In this document: one piece after another, positions 36,960-54,590 of the stretch
Numbering within the stretch: position 1 is the first letter of the stretch
How the letters are laid out: each line of letters begins with the position of its first letter
Assembly (NCBI GenBank): GCA_900169235.1
Contig: FWCC01000343.1
Coordinates: forward strand, 1 to 64,000
DNA length: 64,000 nucleotides
Origin: Zarea fungicola
Lineage: Eukaryota; Ascomycota; Sordariomycetes; Hypocreales; Cordycipitaceae
Reading direction: 5' to 3'
The notes under the pieces: generated by a model
What the model was told of the DNA's origin: nothing
Databases searched by the model: none
The model's input: the letters and a program-made list of their open reading frames with translations, nothing else
Position numbers and translations under genes: made by a program

Positions 36960-39515
36960 ATGGCCGACCTCAATGTGGAAGAGGTCATCAAAAAGCTGAC
37001 TCTCACCGAAAAGGTAGAGCTGCTCTCTGGTATGTCAAACGCCACTGCAATACGCCTTCAAACCTACTAGTCGCTAACCCGCTCAGGCATCGACTTCTGG
37101 CACACAAAGCCCATGCCCAAGCATGGAATCCCCTCGATTCGCATGTCCGACGGTCCCAATGGTGTCCGTGGAACCAAATTCTTCAATGGCGTCCCGGCCG
37201 CTTGCTTTCCCTGCGGCACCGCTCTTGGCTCAACCTTTAACCAGGAGCTCCTTGAACTGGCCGGCAAGACCATGGGTGACGAGGCCATTGCCAAGAGCGC
37301 ACACCTGATTCTTGGTCCAACCATCAACATGCAGCGATCACCCCTCGGTGGCCGTGGCTTCGAATCGATTGGCGAGGATCCCTTCCTCAGCGGACTCGGA
37401 GCCGCCGCACTCGTCCGCGGCATTCAGAGCACCGGTGTTGTCGCCACCATCAAGCACTTTCTCTGCAACGACCAAGAGGACAAGCGCATGGGTGTCCAGA
37501 GCATCGTCACTGAGCGTGCCCTCCGCGAAATCTACGCCATGCCCTTTCAGCTGGCCGTTCGCGATGCCCGTCCTGGCGCCTTCATGACTGCCTACAACGG
37601 CATCAACGGTACCTTTTGCAGCGAGAACCCCAAATACCTCGATGGCATGCTGCGCAAGGAATGGGGCTGGGATGGCCTCATCATGAGTGATTGGTACGGC
37701 ACATACAGCACCAATGATGCCATCACAGCCGGCCTGGATCTTGAAATGCCTGGTCCTTCTCGCTTCCGTGGCGAGGCTCTCCAGTTCAACGCCTCCACCG
37801 GCAAGCCTTTTATCCACCACATTGACGCCCGTGTCCGCGCATTACTCCAGCTCGTCAAGAGGGTGTCCTCCCTGCCCATCGAAGAGAACGGTCCCGAAAA
37901 GACGCTCGACACGCCCGAAACGGCCGCCCTCCTGCGCAAGATTGGCAACGAGAGTATCGTCCTGCTAAAAAACGAAGACAACATCCTCCCCTTTGCCAAG
38001 GAGAAGAAGACGTTGGTGTTGGGGCCCAACGCCAAGGAGGCCACGTACCACGGTGGTGGTTCTGCCGCTCTTCGCGCCTACTACGCAGTCACGCCCTACG
38101 ACGGCATCAGCGAGAAGCTTGGATCGAAGCCCCAGTATACCGTCGGCGCTTACACCCATCGCTTCCTGCCCATTCTCGGCAGCCAGCTCACCGACCCCAA
38201 CGGCAAGCCTGGCATGCGCTGGAGAGTCTTCAACGAAGTCCCCGGCACCGCTGACCGCAAGGTTGTCGACGAGCTCCAGTTTACCAAGACTGAGATGCAC
38301 TTGGTTGACTACAGCAATCCCAACGTCAACAATGTCTGGTATGCCGACATGGAGGGTTCCTTTGTCGCCGACGAGGACTGCATCTACGAAATTGGCGTTG
38401 TTGTTTCTGGTACCGCCAAGGCCTTTGTCAACGACCAGCTGATTGTCGACAACGCGACCAAGCAGGTTGCAGGTGATGCCTTCTTTGGCGCTGCCACCCG
38501 CGAAGAGCGTGGCCGTGTCGAGCTCAAAAAGGGCGAGACGTACAACTTCCGCATCGAGTTCGGTTCCGCCCCTACCTTTACCCTCAAGGGCGACGCCTAC
38601 GTGCCCGGCCACGGCTCCCTGCGCGTTGGCGGCTGCAAGGTGATTGACGATCAGGACGAGATCAAGAAGTCGGTTCAGCTCGCCAAGGAGCACGACCAAG
38701 TCATCATCTGCGCCGGTCTCAACTCCGACTGGGAGACCGAGGGCGCTGACCGTGCCTCGATGAAACTGCCCGGCGTCCTCGACCAGCTCATTGCCGAAGT
38801 CGCCGCTGCCAACCCCAACACTGTTGTCGTCATGCAGACCGGCACGCCCGAGGAGATGCCCTGGCTCTCCCAGACCAAGGCTGTTCTCCAAGCCTGGTAT
38901 GGTGGCAACGAGACTGGCAATTGCATCGCCGACACCATCTTTGGTGACTCTAACCCCTCTGGCAAGCTGTCGCTCAGCTTCCCCAAGCGTCTGCAGGACA
39001 CGCCTGCCTTCCTCAACTTCCGCACCGAGGCCGGCCGCACGCTCTACGGCGAGGATGTCTACGTCGGCTACCGCTACTACGAATTTGCCGATCGTGAGGT
39101 CAACTTCCCCTTTGGTCACGGACTATCCTACACGAGCTTTGGCTTCTCCGACCTTGCTCTGTCCGTCGCCGACGGCAAGATTAGCGCCAGCTTCACCGTT
39201 GCCAACACGGGCGACCGCAAGGGCTCAGCCGTCGCGCAAATGTACATCCAGCCCAAGCAGGCTGCGCGCATCAACCGCCCCGTCAAGGAGCTCCGCGGCT
39301 TCACCAAGGTCGAGCTCGAAGCCGGCGCCTCGCAGGCCCTCACCATTACCGAGCTGGAAAAGTACGCCGCCGCCTACTTTGACGAGGAGCGCGATCAGTG
39401 GTGCGTCGAGGCGGGCGACTACGACGTCATCATCAGCGACAGCAGCGTTGTCTCGGATAAAGCCCTCCGATCATCGTTTACCGTGGCCGAGTCGTACTGG
39501 TGGTCTGGCCTTTAG
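36960..39515 (+). CDS. Glycoside hydrolase family 3 beta-glucosidase with PA14 insert
   Basis: Two exons, 36960..37029 and 37087..39515 (57-nt intron with a GCTAAC branch site), 832 aa. It starts MADLNVEEVIKKLTLTEKVE with no signal peptide, so it is predicted intracellular, unlike the secreted cellulase-type beta-glucosidases. Domains: GH3 N-terminal barrel with substrate-binding RMSDGPNGVRG and the nucleophile motif GLIMSDWYGTYS (Asp225); the alpha/beta sandwich; a PA14 insert at about residues 390-545; the acid/base region DWETEGADR (near Glu575); and a fibronectin-III-like C-terminal domain (from about 690). All key residues are present and length is typical for PA14-containing fungal GH3s. 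It should hydrolyse terminal beta-glucosidic bonds of taken-up oligosaccharides or glycosides. Confidence 0.95.
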
Positions 39516-40346
39516 TTTGCCCATTTAGCGCATAGAGACATGCAGATGAAGTTTTGCACCAATCTGGAGTTTGGAGATTTTTTTTTTGGATTATTTTTTT
39601 TTACCTACATTTTCTTTGTTTCTGGATTATTAGCCTTTTTTCTTCTTTTTTTCTTCTTTTTTTCTTCTTTTTTTGCTTTGTATATAGCTCACCATCTAAA
39701 AATTGCAAAGCTGAAAAAAGTATGATCACGTCATTCATACAAAATCAATAAGCCCGATTTGCTGACACGATTTGCTGACCTCCCTGCGATGCATGCTGAT
39801 CTCCATCGCCCAGCTTCTCTCGTGTCATAATTTGTTACTGCATGATGCGCCCCAAAAAAAAACCATGTGGTGGCTTGCAGCTTGCATGCTGCATACCGGA
39901 AACGGGGTGTTGCATCGTGCTTATTCTGCATAAGGCCCAGCCACCACCCATCAGGTTTACCCAATCGTAGTTGACCAGTGACCAGTGCGAAAATTAACAA
40001 GAATTGCTCCATTCAATATCGGAAGGCAAGGGTAGGCCTGTACTGCAAGGTAGGGGTTGGAAAGGAAGCTTGCACCGACAAGGGTATTATGCATGTTTTT
40101 AAGTAGTTGATATAAATCGATGTTTTTTTGTATGAGCCAACTAAAGAACAAAAAACTCTTTTTAAATCGAAAGACGCCCGCTGTAGATGCTAATACAAAA
40201 AGAGAGGGAAAACAGAGTAGAGAAAAATCTAGGACTAAGAGGGTAGAAGTTGCAGAATATGTAAAAAGAAAAGGAAGAAGAAGAAGAAATCCAGAAAAAG
40301 AAAGGCGAATTATGGAACGCTCAATAGTAGCAATCATTCCTTTTCT
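39516..40346. other. Convergent 3' region with T-rich tract
   Basis: 831 bp between the GH3 stop and the repeat precursor stop (minus strand). A T-rich stretch with repeated TTTTCTTCTT units spans about 39577-39674 and probably belongs to the GH3 3' UTR. No gene seen. Confidence 0.6.
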
Positions 40347-41697
40347 TTAGACATCAACGGTCCCCTGGCCTGGTCCCTTCCAGCCAGGAATCTGACCGCG
40401 CTTGGTGTTGTGGCCAACGGTCCCGGCGCCCGAGTCCTTCCAGCCGGGAATCTCACCGCGCTTGACCTTGTTGCCCACCGTTCCGGCGCCGGATTCCTTC
40501 CAGCCACCCGAACCGCGCTTGCTGGCAACAGCGCGGTTGATGGGGGGGAAGTTGCCGCCGGGCGGCCAGTTCGCTGGCGACGCGCCCCCGCGCTTCTTGT
40601 GGCCGGCGGGACCATTGACGGCAGGCCAGTTGCCGGCATCCACAGTAAACGTGCCCTCGGTGCCTCGCTTCTTGTCTCCCGCGGGTCCGTTGACGGCGGG
40701 CCAGTTGCCCGCGTCGGGGACGACGGCGGCCTCGGTGTCGCGCTTCTTCTTGTGGCCGGCTGGGCCGTTGACGGCGGGCCAGTTGCCCGCGTCGGGGCTG
40801 AATGCGACGGTGCTCTCGCGCTTCTTGTGGCCTGCTGGGCCGCTGACGGCGGGCCAGTTGCCCGCGTCGGGGACGACGGCGGCCCCGGTGCCTCGCTCTC
40901 GGTTCACGGCGGGCCAGTTTCCGGCACCGACTTGCAGGGCGGCGGCGTCGTCGCGCTTCTTGTGGTTCACGGCAGGCCAGTTGCCAGCTTGGACGCTGGC
41001 TTCCGTCTCGGTTCCTCGCTTGTGGTTCACGGCGGGCCAGTTGCCGGCTTGGACGCTGGCTTCCGTCTCAGTCCCCCGCTTGTGGTTCACGGCGGGCCAG
41101 TTACCCGCGTCGACATGCTCCTCCCCCCTTGGCTCGGCAATGTTGACGGCGGGCCAGTTGCCAGCCGGGGGCTGGTTCGCACGCTCGCGGTTCACGGCGG
41201 GCCAGTTGCCGGCGGGGGGCTGGCCGTGTCCTCCTCGCTGGCGGCGGTTCACGGCAGGGTAGTTGCCGGCATCAATCTCCTTGGGCCTGCCCTTGTCAAA
41301 GACGCCGGCGCGCTTCTCCTCCTCGCCGCAGTTCTTTATGCACCACCGGCGGTCGCGCTGGTAGATTTCTCGGGAGCCAGTGTTGTCACGCTTCAGCTCC
41401 GCAAAGGAGTGCATCTGGGGGTGCTCAATGTCGACGAGGACGCTCTGCTCGGGGTTGGAGCCGTCAAAGAAGGACTCGCACGCGGGCCAGTTGCCCACAA
41501 CGGCGGCGGCATCATCGTGGTAGATGGCTGCAATGGACTCGCAGGAAACAGAGACGCCAGCGGCGGGAGCAGCAGTGGCCGTGGCAGCCAGGAGAGCAGC
41601 AGCCAAGCTGACTGCTCGCATCGTACTTTGATGCTGCAAGTGGTTGTGTTAGTATCCTTGGCTCAATCTTGTTGCCAATAGGGCAAGGCCTTACCAT
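40347..41697 (-). CDS. Secreted Kex2-processed repeat peptide precursor
   Basis: Minus strand. Model: ATG at 41695..41697, a 61-nt intron directly after it, then 40347..41633, giving 429 aa; the in-frame Met at 41621 is an alternative start. The N-terminus MRAVSLAAALLAATATAAPA is a clear signal peptide. A pro-region of about 95 residues follows, then eleven AGN(W/Y)PAV(N/S) units, one divergent NFPPIN unit and three GWK(E/D/G) units with (A/Q)GTV, separated mostly by KR, KKR or RER sites. This is the architecture of Kex2-processed precursors: alpha-pheromones, dikaritin RiPPs and other fungal repeat peptides. One WCIKNC segment also sits between basic sites. There is no pheromone-type WC...CW repeat and no UstY-like (DUF3328) or tyrosinase gene nearby. 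Peptide function unknown; secretory-pathway processing is inferred. Confidence 0.85.
40530..41275 (-). repeat. Tandem coding repeats of the peptide precursor
   Basis: In-frame repeats of about 42-78 bp around the conserved AGNWPAVN core. The upstream units end in NHKR or NRER; the downstream four carry an extra GPAGHKKR spacer, which suggests block duplication of a newer unit type. Confidence 0.85.
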
Positions 41698-44600: not shown

Positions 44601-45477
44601 TAACACGGCATGTGGCCGACGTTTCGCGGTTCTCGCAGTAAGACCGTGGCGCCAAAGTATTGCTATCCGTTATGACAGTCTCACACCGTGAGAACTAGAT
44701 TTGAAGGATTCCGTAGCCACTAGTTGATGGAAGATGTGGCGCGGGGCCTGCAAGGCATTCGCAACGTGGTTCTCGATGCTGGTGGTCTGATTACTTTGGC
44801 AAAGAGCATAATCATGGCGGAGTTGTTGTGGTCTTTGGGCTTACTGCACGCCAGCTTTCCACACAAAATAGATTGAATATTTGTGGAATCCTCGTATTGA
44901 ATGGAAATACGGCATTATGGAAGATGTCGAGTCGCGAGGACAGATGGGGTCGTTGGTCGAGTCCATCCAGCGAGTTGTAGTCTTGTTTGCCTGAGGCTAT
45001 ACCTGCTGGCGATGGCTAAGCAAGAGCGGGTAGAAAGCATTGGGGTGAGGGAATTAACATTAGACTGCAGACTGCAGATTGTAAATTGTAAATTGTAAAT
45101 TGTAAGAAAGGTTTTCCGAGAGAGATGGCGAAAAGTGATACTGATTTTTCTTTAGAGACTACAGGTTAGGTCCGTGAATGGGGAATAGCTTCACCCCGCC
45201 TACCATATACTTATTTGTTAGTCCAACAGTATTCATCGCCAACATTACAGATGAAACAGCAGATCAGTGTCGGAATTGAGGTATTATTAGCTTCCGCCTT
45301 TTTTATTGATTTTACTCGCAAGAAATAGGGCTTCATTCTAACCAATACATGGCATGTACATTGCCTCTGAGAATCGGTAGCCTGTTACATCTGCCGCCCC
45401 GCATCGCCGCCAACGCCAGCAAACATTCGACCCGCATCTTCACGACCCCTTCAACCCTTTACTGCAGGTATCACAGA
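41698..45477. other. Intergenic region, 3.8 kb
   Basis: Contains the promoter of the peptide precursor (TATTAAAG on the minus strand near 41920-41928) and of Fta4. A short ATTGTAA repeat (four copies) lies near 45078-45105. No further gene recognised; in particular no peptide-tailoring enzyme next to the precursor. Confidence 0.5.
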
Positions 45478-46300
45478 ATGGACAGCGCGACACCGACGAT
45501 TCCCGCAAGAAAACAGGCGTTTCTCACCGCGCAGACAACTCTACTGTCACAGCCAATTGCACCGTCTCGGGCGTGGCGCGCGGCCAACGACGCGTCTGAT
45601 ACGCCCATCCCGCGTCGGCTTGTTGATGACGCCGTCTACAATCTCAACCATGCCGTCGAACAGCATTGCCGGCGTGTCTACGCACCCCAGGCCACCCGCA
45701 ATTTAGCTGAGCAAATCAGTTCCATCTACATCAAGCAGATGGACCGGAGAGACGGTGGACCCAACGATGTTGATGGCGGGGTTGGAAAGGAAGTTGATCT
45801 CAGTGAGTCTGCCGCGTTTAATACGTCTCCACTCCTCTCCTCCTCTCCTTACTAACTCTGCTATTCTAGCCAACGACGGCACTATAGAGTCACTCCCGCC
45901 GTCTTGGCCAGCAGGAAAGGAAGCTGCGGCAAGACCAGAGAATGCCCAGGCATACGCCGAGTCTGTCGCACGTCTGGCTGAGCTTGGCCAAGAGCGAAAG
46001 CAGGCACGGCTACGGCTGGAAAAGCTGCGCCGGCTCCAGTCCATTATTGAGCCTCTAAATACCACAGACGCCGGCAACGGTATACAAGAAAACCTGGTGA
46101 CGCGCAACGGTGCTGTCGAGACGGAGTTGGAAAAGATGCGCAGCCTGCTCGAGCGCGTAGCTGACCAGGTTGACAGTAAAATCCCAAACGCGAGCGCCCG
46201 CGCGCGAGCAAGAGATGAAGTCAACCTGGGTGAGCTGCGCACATCGAGGAAGCGGGCCGTCGACGACTTTCTCGCCGACTCTTCAGTATTTCCAGGATGA
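45478..46300 (+). CDS. fta4: Kinetochore protein Fta4-like (Sim4/CENP complex subunit)
   Basis: Two exons, 45478..45802 and 45870..46300 (67-nt intron with a TACTAAC branch site), 251 aa. The N-terminal half resembles fungal Fta4: KQAFLTAQTTLLSQPIAPSR, then a VDDAVYNLNHAVEQHCRRVY segment and AEQISSIYIKQ. The C-terminal half is a charged coiled coil (RLAELGQERKQARLRLEKLR and ELEKMRSLLERVADQV) with a basic tail. In fission yeast Fta4 belongs to the inner-kinetochore Sim4 complex that links CENP-A chromatin to the outer kinetochore; nuclear and centromeric location is inferred. The frame is also open from an ATG at 45349, which would add 43 residues not expected in the family, so I chose 45478. 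Confidence 0.75.
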
Positions 46301-48154: not shown

Positions 48155-49940
48155 ATGGCTCTCAATGGCCCCGGCATTACTTTGCGCACGGCAAGTGACG
48201 AAGGCGAAGATGTGGCCGACTTTCGGAACAACAGACTACAAGAAGGTTGGAAGGAGTGGCCGAATGAAGCTGGTGTATGTATTCATGCGTACTTGACTGT
48301 ACATTACATATACTCACACCTTTTAGTTTGAAGGGCTTGACGAGCATCGAGGCCCCATCCCTTTAAATGTCAAGGGCTCTATCCCGGAATGGGCGGCTGG
48401 CACCTTGTACCGCACCGGGCCTGGCCAGAGCTCGGTTGAGACCAATTCCCACGGAACTTATAACATCAGCCACTGGTTTGACGGCCTCGCACACAGCCAC
48501 AAATTTGACATTGTTCCCCCCAGCAAACCTGGTGGCCAGACATCGGTAGTATACTCGTCCAGACGTCAATCCGAGAGATTGGAAGAGCATATCAAAGAAA
48601 GAGGCAAGCGCACGACGCCATCCTTTGGCCAACGGGCCGATCCATGCATGGGAATCTTTGCCAAGGCCATGGGTGTTTTTGCACCCCGCGACCAATACAA
48701 CAACAATGTCGTGCTGCTACCCAACTTTCCGGGTATCGATGACGACCGCAAGCCCACAAACCAGACGGGCCACCGTCCTGCCATGGACAACCTGTACATC
48801 AGCACCGATACGGCAGGCCTACAAAAGGTCGACCCAGAGACCCTTGAGCCCCTGGGGTACACTGACCAGTCGAGTCTGCACCCGGAGCTGACTGGCCCGC
48901 TGTCTTGCGCGCACGCGCAGCGGGATCCCGAGAATGGCGACTTGTACAACTACAACCTCGAGTTTGGACGGTTTGCGACTTACCGCTTTTTCCGTGTCAG
49001 TGCTGCAACAGGCAAGACTGAAATTTTTGCCACCGTCTCGGAGCCCGGCATCGCGCCGGCCTACATTCACAGCTTTTTTCTAACGCCCAATTACATGGTA
49101 TTGTGTGTCCCGACTACGCATCTGGCGTGGAACGGCATCAAGATTCTCTGGGAGCAGAGCGTCCTCGGTGCCATCCAGCCGTTTGACGAAAACACACCTT
49201 GCCGCTGGCTCGTCGTCGATCGCAAGGGCGACCGCGGCGTTGTTGCGCGCTTCTCCACACCGGCGTCCTTTTTCTTTCACTCTATCAACGCCTTTGAAGA
49301 AACCATCAAGGACGAAAATGACGAGGAGCGCGTCGACATCTCGCTCGAGTATGCCCGTTACGACAACACCGACATTCTCCATACCCTGTACTACGACGTG
49401 GTGACGGATCGGGACGACGCCGCCAAGAAGTTCTTCTTCACCAACGAGCGGTATAAAAAGGGTCACATCCGCCTCATGAGGTATCGCTTCCGGCTGCCGC
49501 GCGACGGAACACGGCAGAGCGAGGAGGAGGCCCTGACCGCAGCGGGCGAGGAGGTCCTGTCCATCCCGGCCCCGCACGCGGGCGACCTGCCCATCATCAA
49601 CCCGCGCATGGTACACAAGCCACACCGCTACGTCTACAGCGTGACGAGCCGCGGCATCAGCACCTTCCTCGACGGCCTGGTCAAGACGGACGTGCAGACG
49701 CGCGACGCCATCATCTGGCGGGGGCCAAAGGGCCATACCCCCGGCGAGCCCATCTTTATCGAGAGACCGGGCGCGACGGACGAGGATGACGGCGTGCTGC
49801 TGAGTGTGGTGCTGGATGCGGTTGGAAAAGCTTCATATCTGCTCTGCTTGGATGCGAAGTCGTTTGAGGAGGTTGGTCGGGCGGAGACGGATTTTCCTAT
49901 TGGGTTTGGCTTCCATGGACATCACCAGAGTGCGGTGTGA
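48155..49940 (+). CDS. Carotenoid cleavage oxygenase family protein
   Basis: Two exons, 48155..48274 and 48327..49940 (52-nt intron), 577 aa. Strong family signatures: an N-terminal segment ending in GSIPEWAAGTLYRTGPG, then HWFDGLAHSHKF, and the four iron-binding histidines of the seven-bladed propeller, visible in SCAHAQ (His236), AYIHSFF (His288), FFFHSINAFEE (His358) and FGFHGHHQSAV (His570 or 572). These enzymes use non-heme Fe(II) and O2 to split double bonds of carotenoids, apocarotenoids or stilbenoids. Fungal relatives include torulene dioxygenase and retinal-forming carotenoid oxygenase; the substrate here is open. No carotenoid biosynthesis genes lie nearby. No signal peptide; probably cytosolic or membrane-associated. 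All catalytic residues are present, so activity is likely. Confidence 0.93.
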
Positions 49941-53007: not shown

Positions 53008-54590
53008 ATGGCCACAGCTACTGCGACACAGACTGCAGAACAAAGTGACTGTATTCAGCTCGGATCTGTTGCCGCGTCTGCAGAGCATGTAGAGCCGCCG
53101 GCGTCATCGAAACAACACACTGCATATACCCAGTGGAAGCTGGACAACGAGGTCTACATTAAAGTGATAAGCGCTGGATTCTCATTTTTCGTCGCCGGCG
53201 TCAATGACGGCAGCATCGGCGCTCTACTGCCCTACATCATCCGAGAATACAACATCACCACCGCCATCGTGTCTGCAATGTAAGGCGCAGCCACCATTCC
53301 ACCTCCCCTCTAGCATGATTTCTCTGACTGGTATAAGATATGGAGCCAATTTCATGGGATGGTTGCTCTCGGCCGTCGTCAACACGCATCTAATGCAATA
53401 CCTCGACCTCGGCGCGATGCTGTGCCTCGGCGCGGCCCTACAAATCCTCGCGCACGCGCTTCGGTCATGGGGCCCTCCGTTTGGGCTCTTTGTCGTTTCT
53501 TTCTTTCTCGTGAGCACCGGTCAGGCATTTCAGGATACCCACTCGAATACGTTTGTGGCAGGGCTCGGCGCCAAATCGCATCGGTGGCTGGCCTTTATCC
53601 ATGCCATGTACATGGCTGGTTGTCTGGTCGCGCCGTTTGTTGCCACGGCCGTGGCCGCCGCGGGTGGTGACGGTGCAAAGTCCCATTGGTATCTCTACTA
53701 TACGTTTCCCCTAGCGCTCGGTGTCGTGAATCTTGCATTCGTCATGGTGGCGTTCAAAGACACAGTGCGGCGGCATAAAAAGCTATCCCCAGAGCAAAAC
53801 TCGGCGGCAAGCTCTAGTGATGCAAATTCTTCTGGTGAGCAGCAACGTGACGGGGCAGCCTCGCGGAATAAGGGCGCTATGGTCCTAATTCGGACGACGC
53901 TGTCAACGCCAAGTGTTTGGCTCCTGTGCACGTTTTTCCTCTTCTACCTTGGCTCAACAGTGACCATAAGCGGCTGGATTGTCGAGTTCCTGTACGAGGC
54001 GCGCCATGGAGTGCTTTCCAGAGTCGGCTATGTCCCTGCTGGCTTCAACGGTGGGTGTCTACTAGGACGACTTCTCCTTGTTGAGCCGACTCATCGTTTT
54101 GGCGAGCGAAGAATGGTGTTTCTATATTGCCTGCTAGCACTTGCGTTGCAACTGGTGTTTTGGCTGTAAGTATATGTTTGGAATGTTGGGTGGTGATGCT
54201 GCTAAAAAGGGAAACCGGTAGCGTACCTGATATTATTGCTGCATCTATTGCAGTGAGCTTCATCGGATTCTTTACAGGACCGCTCTTTGCCACAGTATGT
54301 TTTCCCTCTGCCTACCGTCGTTGCATTTAGCTCACCCGTGTCAGGGCATATCGCTTGGTTCCAAGTTGTTCCCCGAGGAGATACAGTCGACAGCTCTGGC
54401 CCTGGTTTTTGTATTTGCACAAATGGGAGGCGCAATCTTTCCCGTCATCACAGGCGTGCTGTCTTCCAACACTGGTGTTAAAGTTCTGCAGCCGATTCTA
54501 GTGGCGTTGCTGCTGGCGACTGGGATAAGTTGGCTTTTGGTTCCGCGACCCAAGTCTTTGGCGAACAATTCTGGATTGCATCAGGATTAG
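53008..54590 (+). CDS. Major facilitator superfamily transporter
   Basis: Four exons, 53008..53279, 53338..54165, 54222..54294 and 54345..54590, 472 aa; introns of 58, 56 and 50 nt. The protein has a cytosolic N-tail of about 55 residues, six hydrophobic helices, a long hydrophilic Ser/Asn/Gln loop (about 235-275) and further helices to the C-terminus, the usual 11-12-helix MFS layout. Helix 1 reads ISAGFSFFVAGVNDGSIGALLPYI, and after the last splice is FPEEIQSTALALVFVFAQMGG. The closest group I can name is the yeast Bsc6 (YOL137W)/FHS-like branch, often annotated as fucose-permease-like; the substrate is unknown. The splice sites reconstruct a continuous helix (FWLVPDIIAASIAVSFIGFF), so the exon model is well supported. 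Plasma or internal membrane location is inferred. Confidence 0.88.

Follow-up and report, generated by a model that had tools for sequence, protein, structure and literature searches.

Zarea fungicola causes dry bubble, a disease of mushrooms. In the 64,000-nucleotide stretch of its genome analysed here (the window), one minus-strand gene encodes a predicted protein in which a short core, AGN(W/Y)PAV(N/S), recurs again and again between dibasic sites, and the question that this locus raises is what kind of product such a gene would release. An initial annotation took it for a Kex2-processed precursor laid out like alpha-pheromone precursors and dikaritin-type RiPP precursors, from which trimming would leave many free AGNWPAVN octapeptides. 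By examining the gene model, the repeats, the nucleotide changes among them and the surrounding genome—assisted by searches of protein databases and the literature—we consider it likely that the gene encodes a KEP (Kex2-processed repeat protein) with no relatives detected, an account that spans processing, secretion and selection.

Read without splicing, the minus-strand open reading frame at 40347-41621 gives 424 aa from its ATG. The spliced model is longer, with exon 1 joined in frame to exon 2 and 429 aa closed by one terminal stop; its predicted start agrees with the end coordinate of 41697 chosen in the initial annotation. The parts of the gene are the following.

41695..41697, minus strand: predicted exon 1 (ATG only), from the in-frame join across a consensus fungal intron
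41634..41694, minus strand: predicted 61-nt intron with GTAAGG donor, TACTAAC branch site and TTGCAG acceptor
41621, minus strand: alternative unspliced start ATG, from the ORF scan
40347..41633, minus strand: exon 2 with the stop codon (429-aa precursor; 424 aa from ATG 41621)
41568..41633, minus strand: hydrophobic N-terminus, putative signal peptide (limits approximate), from hydropathy
41310..41567, minus strand: pro-region with four Cys, from the translation
41481..41495, minus strand: lone GNWPA in the pro-region, ahead of the first dibasic site, from the translation
40614..41270, minus strand: array of eleven AGN(W/Y)PAV(N/S) cores, from translation, codon-position pattern and pN/pS
41247-41270, 41190-41213, 41142-41165 and 41085-41108, minus strand: cores 1-4
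41025-41048, 40965-40988, 40902-40925 and 40842-40865, minus strand: cores 5-8
40767-40790, 40689-40712 and 40614-40637, minus strand: cores 9-11
40515..40589, minus strand: degenerate relative of the unit, GGASPANWPPGGNFPPINRAVASKR (piece ANWPPGGNFPPIN), from the translation
40350..40514, minus strand: three C-terminal pieces with the common motif GWK..G.GTV and KR between them, from the translation

Hydropathy at the N-terminus of the precursor peaks at 2.44 over 9 residues, and this hydrophobic start suggests a signal peptide and entry into the secretory pathway. All cysteines of the precursor (n=4) lie in the pro-region, which ends in a single-copy piece bounded by RR and KR, WCIKNCGEEEKR (41310-41345, minus strand), with WCIKNCGEEE, a WC start and two Cys.

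Counting in the translation gives exactly the eleven near-identical units that had been annotated; the fourth residue is W in ten and Y in one, and the last is N in ten and S in one. None of 60 residue shuffles contained an 8-mer repeated with at most one mismatch, against the 11 copies observed. The precursor has 14 KR/RR sites (shuffle mean 3.2; at least 14 in 0 of 2000 shuffles), and these dibasic sites separate the units in 7 of 10 gaps, which bears out the earlier description of units parted mostly in this way; two of the other three gaps have RER, and the third is a stretch with a single PRG. Cutting at KR/RR gives 15 pieces of 78, 14, 12, 23, 55, 20, 21, 45, 26, 25, 25, 25, 19, 20 and 16 residues, so that all but the pieces of 45 and 55 and the N-terminal one of 78 (12 of 15) fall within 12-26 residues. 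The cores are spread over eight of these pieces: six carry one, one carries two and one carries three. In the six single-core pieces, 9 residues (five pieces) or 13 residues (one piece) precede the core, and H, GPAGH or GPAGD follows it in 5 of 6.

The three gaps lacking KR/RR fit a repeat protein that is secreted and remains intact, in the cell wall for instance, with dibasic sites that are incidental or rarely cut, as do the 45- and 55-residue pieces, which besides the 78-residue one would make processing uneven. Yet KR/RR sites are far more numerous than composition would give, they stand between the copies and bound the pieces, and a Pfam scan of the precursor gave no domain with an E of 10 or lower; we therefore give little credence to an intact protein.

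Under the KEP account, the precursor would enter the secretory pathway, the genome's kexin would cut after KR/RR and a Kex1-type carboxypeptidase would trim the basic residues. A kexin P-domain has one match in the genome, within a frame of 887 codons in which a subtilase domain is found as well. Release would then yield six linear peptides with a single AGN(W/Y)PAVN core and a length of 18-22 residues, such as GTETEASVQAGNWPAVNH. Two further fragments would hold two and three cores, and the C-terminus would give three GWK..G.GTV peptides (16-18 residues). Computed [M+H]+ values are 1867.857 for GTETEASVQAGNWPAVNH, 2154.984 for GTEGTFTVDAGNWPAVNGPAGH, 2181.000 for ESTVAFSPDAGNWPAVNGPAGH and 2122.968 for DTEAAVVPDAGNWPAVNGPAGD; those of the C-terminal peptides are 1590.787, 1782.841 and 1595.818, and that of the bare octapeptide is 828.400. 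Since the Ste13 signature (XA or XP) follows none of the 14 KR/RR sites, trimming to the octapeptide is not predicted. The idea of a Kex2-processed precursor thus survives in part: a putative secretory start, repeats set between Kex2 sites and a selected-looking core speak for it, while the free octapeptide gives way to predicted single-core peptides of 18-22 residues.

The selected look of the core comes from comparing its copies. Among the eleven cores, the minimum changes at codon positions 1, 2 and 3 of the minus-strand frame are 0, 2 and 8, and so few core replacements have P 0.0025 (on minimum changes, not tree-based). The core varies at synonymous sites and hardly in protein, so the peptide looks selected. 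With copies compared within the gene, pN/pS is 0.077 in the core vs 0.99 in the eight codons upstream, a contrast that serves as a guide because the flank alignments are ungapped and saturated. Among copies of this one gene, then, the core looks kept by selection and the spacers look free to drift. In units 8-11 the core stands at 0.10, the nine codons preceding it at 0.80 and the GPAGHKK that follows it at 0.055; the conserved block there extends beyond eight residues, an argument against the octapeptide being the sole functional unit.

Opposite the whole repeat gene runs a plus-strand stop-free frame at 40239-41678 (480 codons; 240 aa from its ATG), and GC by codon position gives no separation of the two strands. 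Both observations lend something to the idea that the plus strand is the coding one and the minus-strand protein a by-product of GC-rich repeats. Against it, third positions of the minus-strand frame take most of the changes among the copies, and the in-frame intron and hydrophobic N-terminus belong to the minus strand; plus-strand coding is hardly credible on these grounds, and it is the antisense frame that is probably a by-product of the GC-rich repeats.

Does the minus-strand precursor have relatives? A whole-precursor search of 5.8 billion proteins (a database without the precursor itself) scored the top 7998 word-sharing candidates and gave none at E 0.001 or better, under a word pre-filter that may pass over changed cores and a length window of 233-742 aa, so that homologues which are short or diverged might have escaped. 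With residues 20-135 as query there were 118 candidates, of which none reached E 10. The initial annotation had looked to related species for conserved cores; within these word and length limits the 5.8 billion proteins yielded no homologue that might carry them. In the same database, a control query with the genome's STE2 found 71 proteins at E 1e-10 or better, all with the STE2 Pfam domain; the best match was 95% identical and came from Zarea fungicola, and the next named were Lecanicillium saksenae and Aphanocladium album (73%), Akanthomyces lecanii (72%) and Cordyceps militaris (70%). By these identities the host is a Zarea-like member of Cordycipitaceae; a search for 5.8S rRNA gave no match. 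When made-up decoys with at least three cores were scored by phmmer, E 0.001 was passed by 12 of 12 with exact cores and 11 of 12 with two substitutions. At this database size phmmer would thus pick up most proteins carrying three or more cores, a control that covers the phmmer step and leaves the word pre-filter and length limit outside its reach.

Within the genome itself, a paralogue search returned this gene only, and every one of the core pattern's 10 matches fell within it (the eleventh unit has Y), against 0 for the reversed pattern. A further search added one match, on contig C91 (E 0.022); its reading is interrupted by a stop and a 313-codon frame runs opposite to it, and it was for these reasons taken as chance. 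Literature searches with GNWPA, NWPAV, AGNWP and NYPAV gave matches unrelated by title, among those listed; the core string is absent from the main texts of PMC6339444 and PMC7329392, and NWP from that of PMC7099791.

With Ppg1 and Ccg-4 type alpha-pheromone precursors the protein shares the plan of a secretory repeat precursor cut by Kex2, and the genome has STE2, two points that would suit an alpha-type mating pheromone precursor that has diverged in this species. A further point in favour is that the usual motif, searched for exactly, had no match. The consensus of the Sordariomycete-type core is WCXXGXXCW (PMC3068285), with two Cys, whereas none of the eleven cores has any, and the Ste13 signature is missing from every KR/RR site. 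Moreover, the genome holds a separate candidate: a 195-aa frame on contig C170 (154400-157400; minus strand 1318-1905 of that piece) with a hydrophobic start followed by FCLRPMQPCWKVKR, WCMGRVQPCWKARR and ICWKAKR. It carries one full-length diverged motif, WCMGRVQPCW, and two partial ones; the change of G to V from the usual motif lets it escape an exact motif search. The candidate has no Pfam match; it may be similar to Neurospora Ccg-4. It resembles the WC...PCW pheromone style presented in PMC3068285 and PMC6339444, and the repeat precursor has no similarity to it (E 11). The likeness in layout noted in the initial annotation thus fails as a mark of membership, on the Ste13 signature, the Cys pair and the separate candidate gene together: that the protein is the alpha-pheromone precursor, in diverged form or otherwise, is very unlikely.

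The C170 candidate came from a two-mismatch motif search with 176 matches, vs 43 for the reversed pattern. Among the matches listed, 13 had one mismatch, of which seven, C170 included, were translated and the other six had a stop (by eye); of the listed two-mismatch matches C192 alone was examined, so that further pheromone-like genes are possible. One exact Hypocreales-type pattern had 0 matches in the genome. A second pattern had 5, four of which proved on translation to be no repeat precursors and the fifth of which had a stop codon in the match; another had 4, with no repeat precursor among the three translated and a stop in the fourth. A further pattern had 268 matches vs 117 reversed, and no cluster was recognised among the matches listed. 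The alpha-factor gene CPP1 of Cordyceps militaris is named in PMC5577849; no sequence of CPP1 or of another Cordycipitaceae pheromone was found for comparison in the literature searched, which included part of PMC3334602.

Dikaritin/ustiloxin-type precursors offer the other likeness, in that their cores contain an aromatic residue and recur between Kex2 sites, and the Trp/Tyr of the present core might be cross-linked by UstYa-family enzymes encoded elsewhere into a cyclic bioactive peptide. The only residue change at core position 4, W to Y, stays aromatic, and the genome has at least 55 UstYa (DUF3328) matches, many of them separate exons. The ustiloxin/phomopsin core, on the other hand, is of the EDYXI type (PMC6339444), from which the present core differs. 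The neighbourhood, in which a Pfam scan covered 29 frames besides the precursor and not every small exon, includes the following genes.

37113-39515, plus strand: GH3 glycosidase gene
45310-46297: Fta4 kinetochore gene in two exons, on the other side of the precursor from GH3
48327-49937: RPE65-family gene
53171-54166: MFS gene

The window has no UstYa match and the contig just one, at 123012-123329, which is near the contig's end and 81 kb off, whereas UstYa genes stand on average 3.09 genes from the KEPs that have them (PMC7329392). Nor did the 30 window frames scanned (29 besides the precursor; short exons left out) give a tyrosinase match. The gene context accordingly gives no backing to the dikaritin layout as membership: the precursor lies outside any recognisable RiPP cluster, dikaritin membership is not shown, and cross-linking by enzymes encoded elsewhere seems to us improbable. 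Several UstYa matches are grouped on contigs C439, C230, C290 and C163, and the fungus may have several dikaritin-type clusters.

We return to the KEPs, a class named by Le Marquer 2019 (PMC6339444). By the rule of Umemura 2020 (PMC7329392), KEPs have at least three repeats of at least eight residues between Kex2 sites, and such repeats are present here, as judged by reading; the precursor further shares with them a core of the diverse kind typical of the class, and its hydrophobic N-terminus may be a secretory signal like theirs. That core lies outside the conserved KEP motifs of section 10 of PMC6339444, a comparison that does not cover the supplementary tables of the surveys. On its sequence features, the precursor is apparently a real, orphan member of the KEP class and founds no new class. 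Orphans are common among KEPs (2560 of 7878 have no homologues, and 22% stand beside UstYa genes; PMC7329392), and KEPs with two repeat types have likewise been described already (77 of 1193, with three types in 2 of 1193; PMC6339444). The present precursor comes with a core that looks selected, with a gene model that includes splicing and with predicted peptide masses.

As to function, KEP peptides are described as widespread and their functions as largely unknown, and when six KEPs of Coprinopsis were knocked out no phenotype was apparent; the authors suggest a role in biotic interactions (PMC9769878). In that work Pichia with and without KEX2 served to express Coprinopsis KEPs. Rep1 of Ustilago maydis likewise gives Kex2-cut, non-pheromone repeat peptides without the Ste13 signature; those have a length of 37 aa and influence the wall properties of hyphae (PMC6339444). 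The peptides of the present precursor, if secreted, would act extracellularly; dealings with other organisms or non-mating self-signalling would be their likeliest role, and this is the weakest step of the proposed mechanism. A bolder version, in which AGNWPAVN would be the first of a new non-mating peptide hormone or inter-fungal signal of Zarea-like fungi that has a receptor of its own and is released together with a second peptide type, GWK..G.GTV, from one precursor, strikes us as rather unlikely. The separate candidate mating pheromone in the same genome makes a non-mating role of the repeat precursor directly testable. As for where the repeats came from, the lone GNWPA of the pro-region may be a source of the repeat core.
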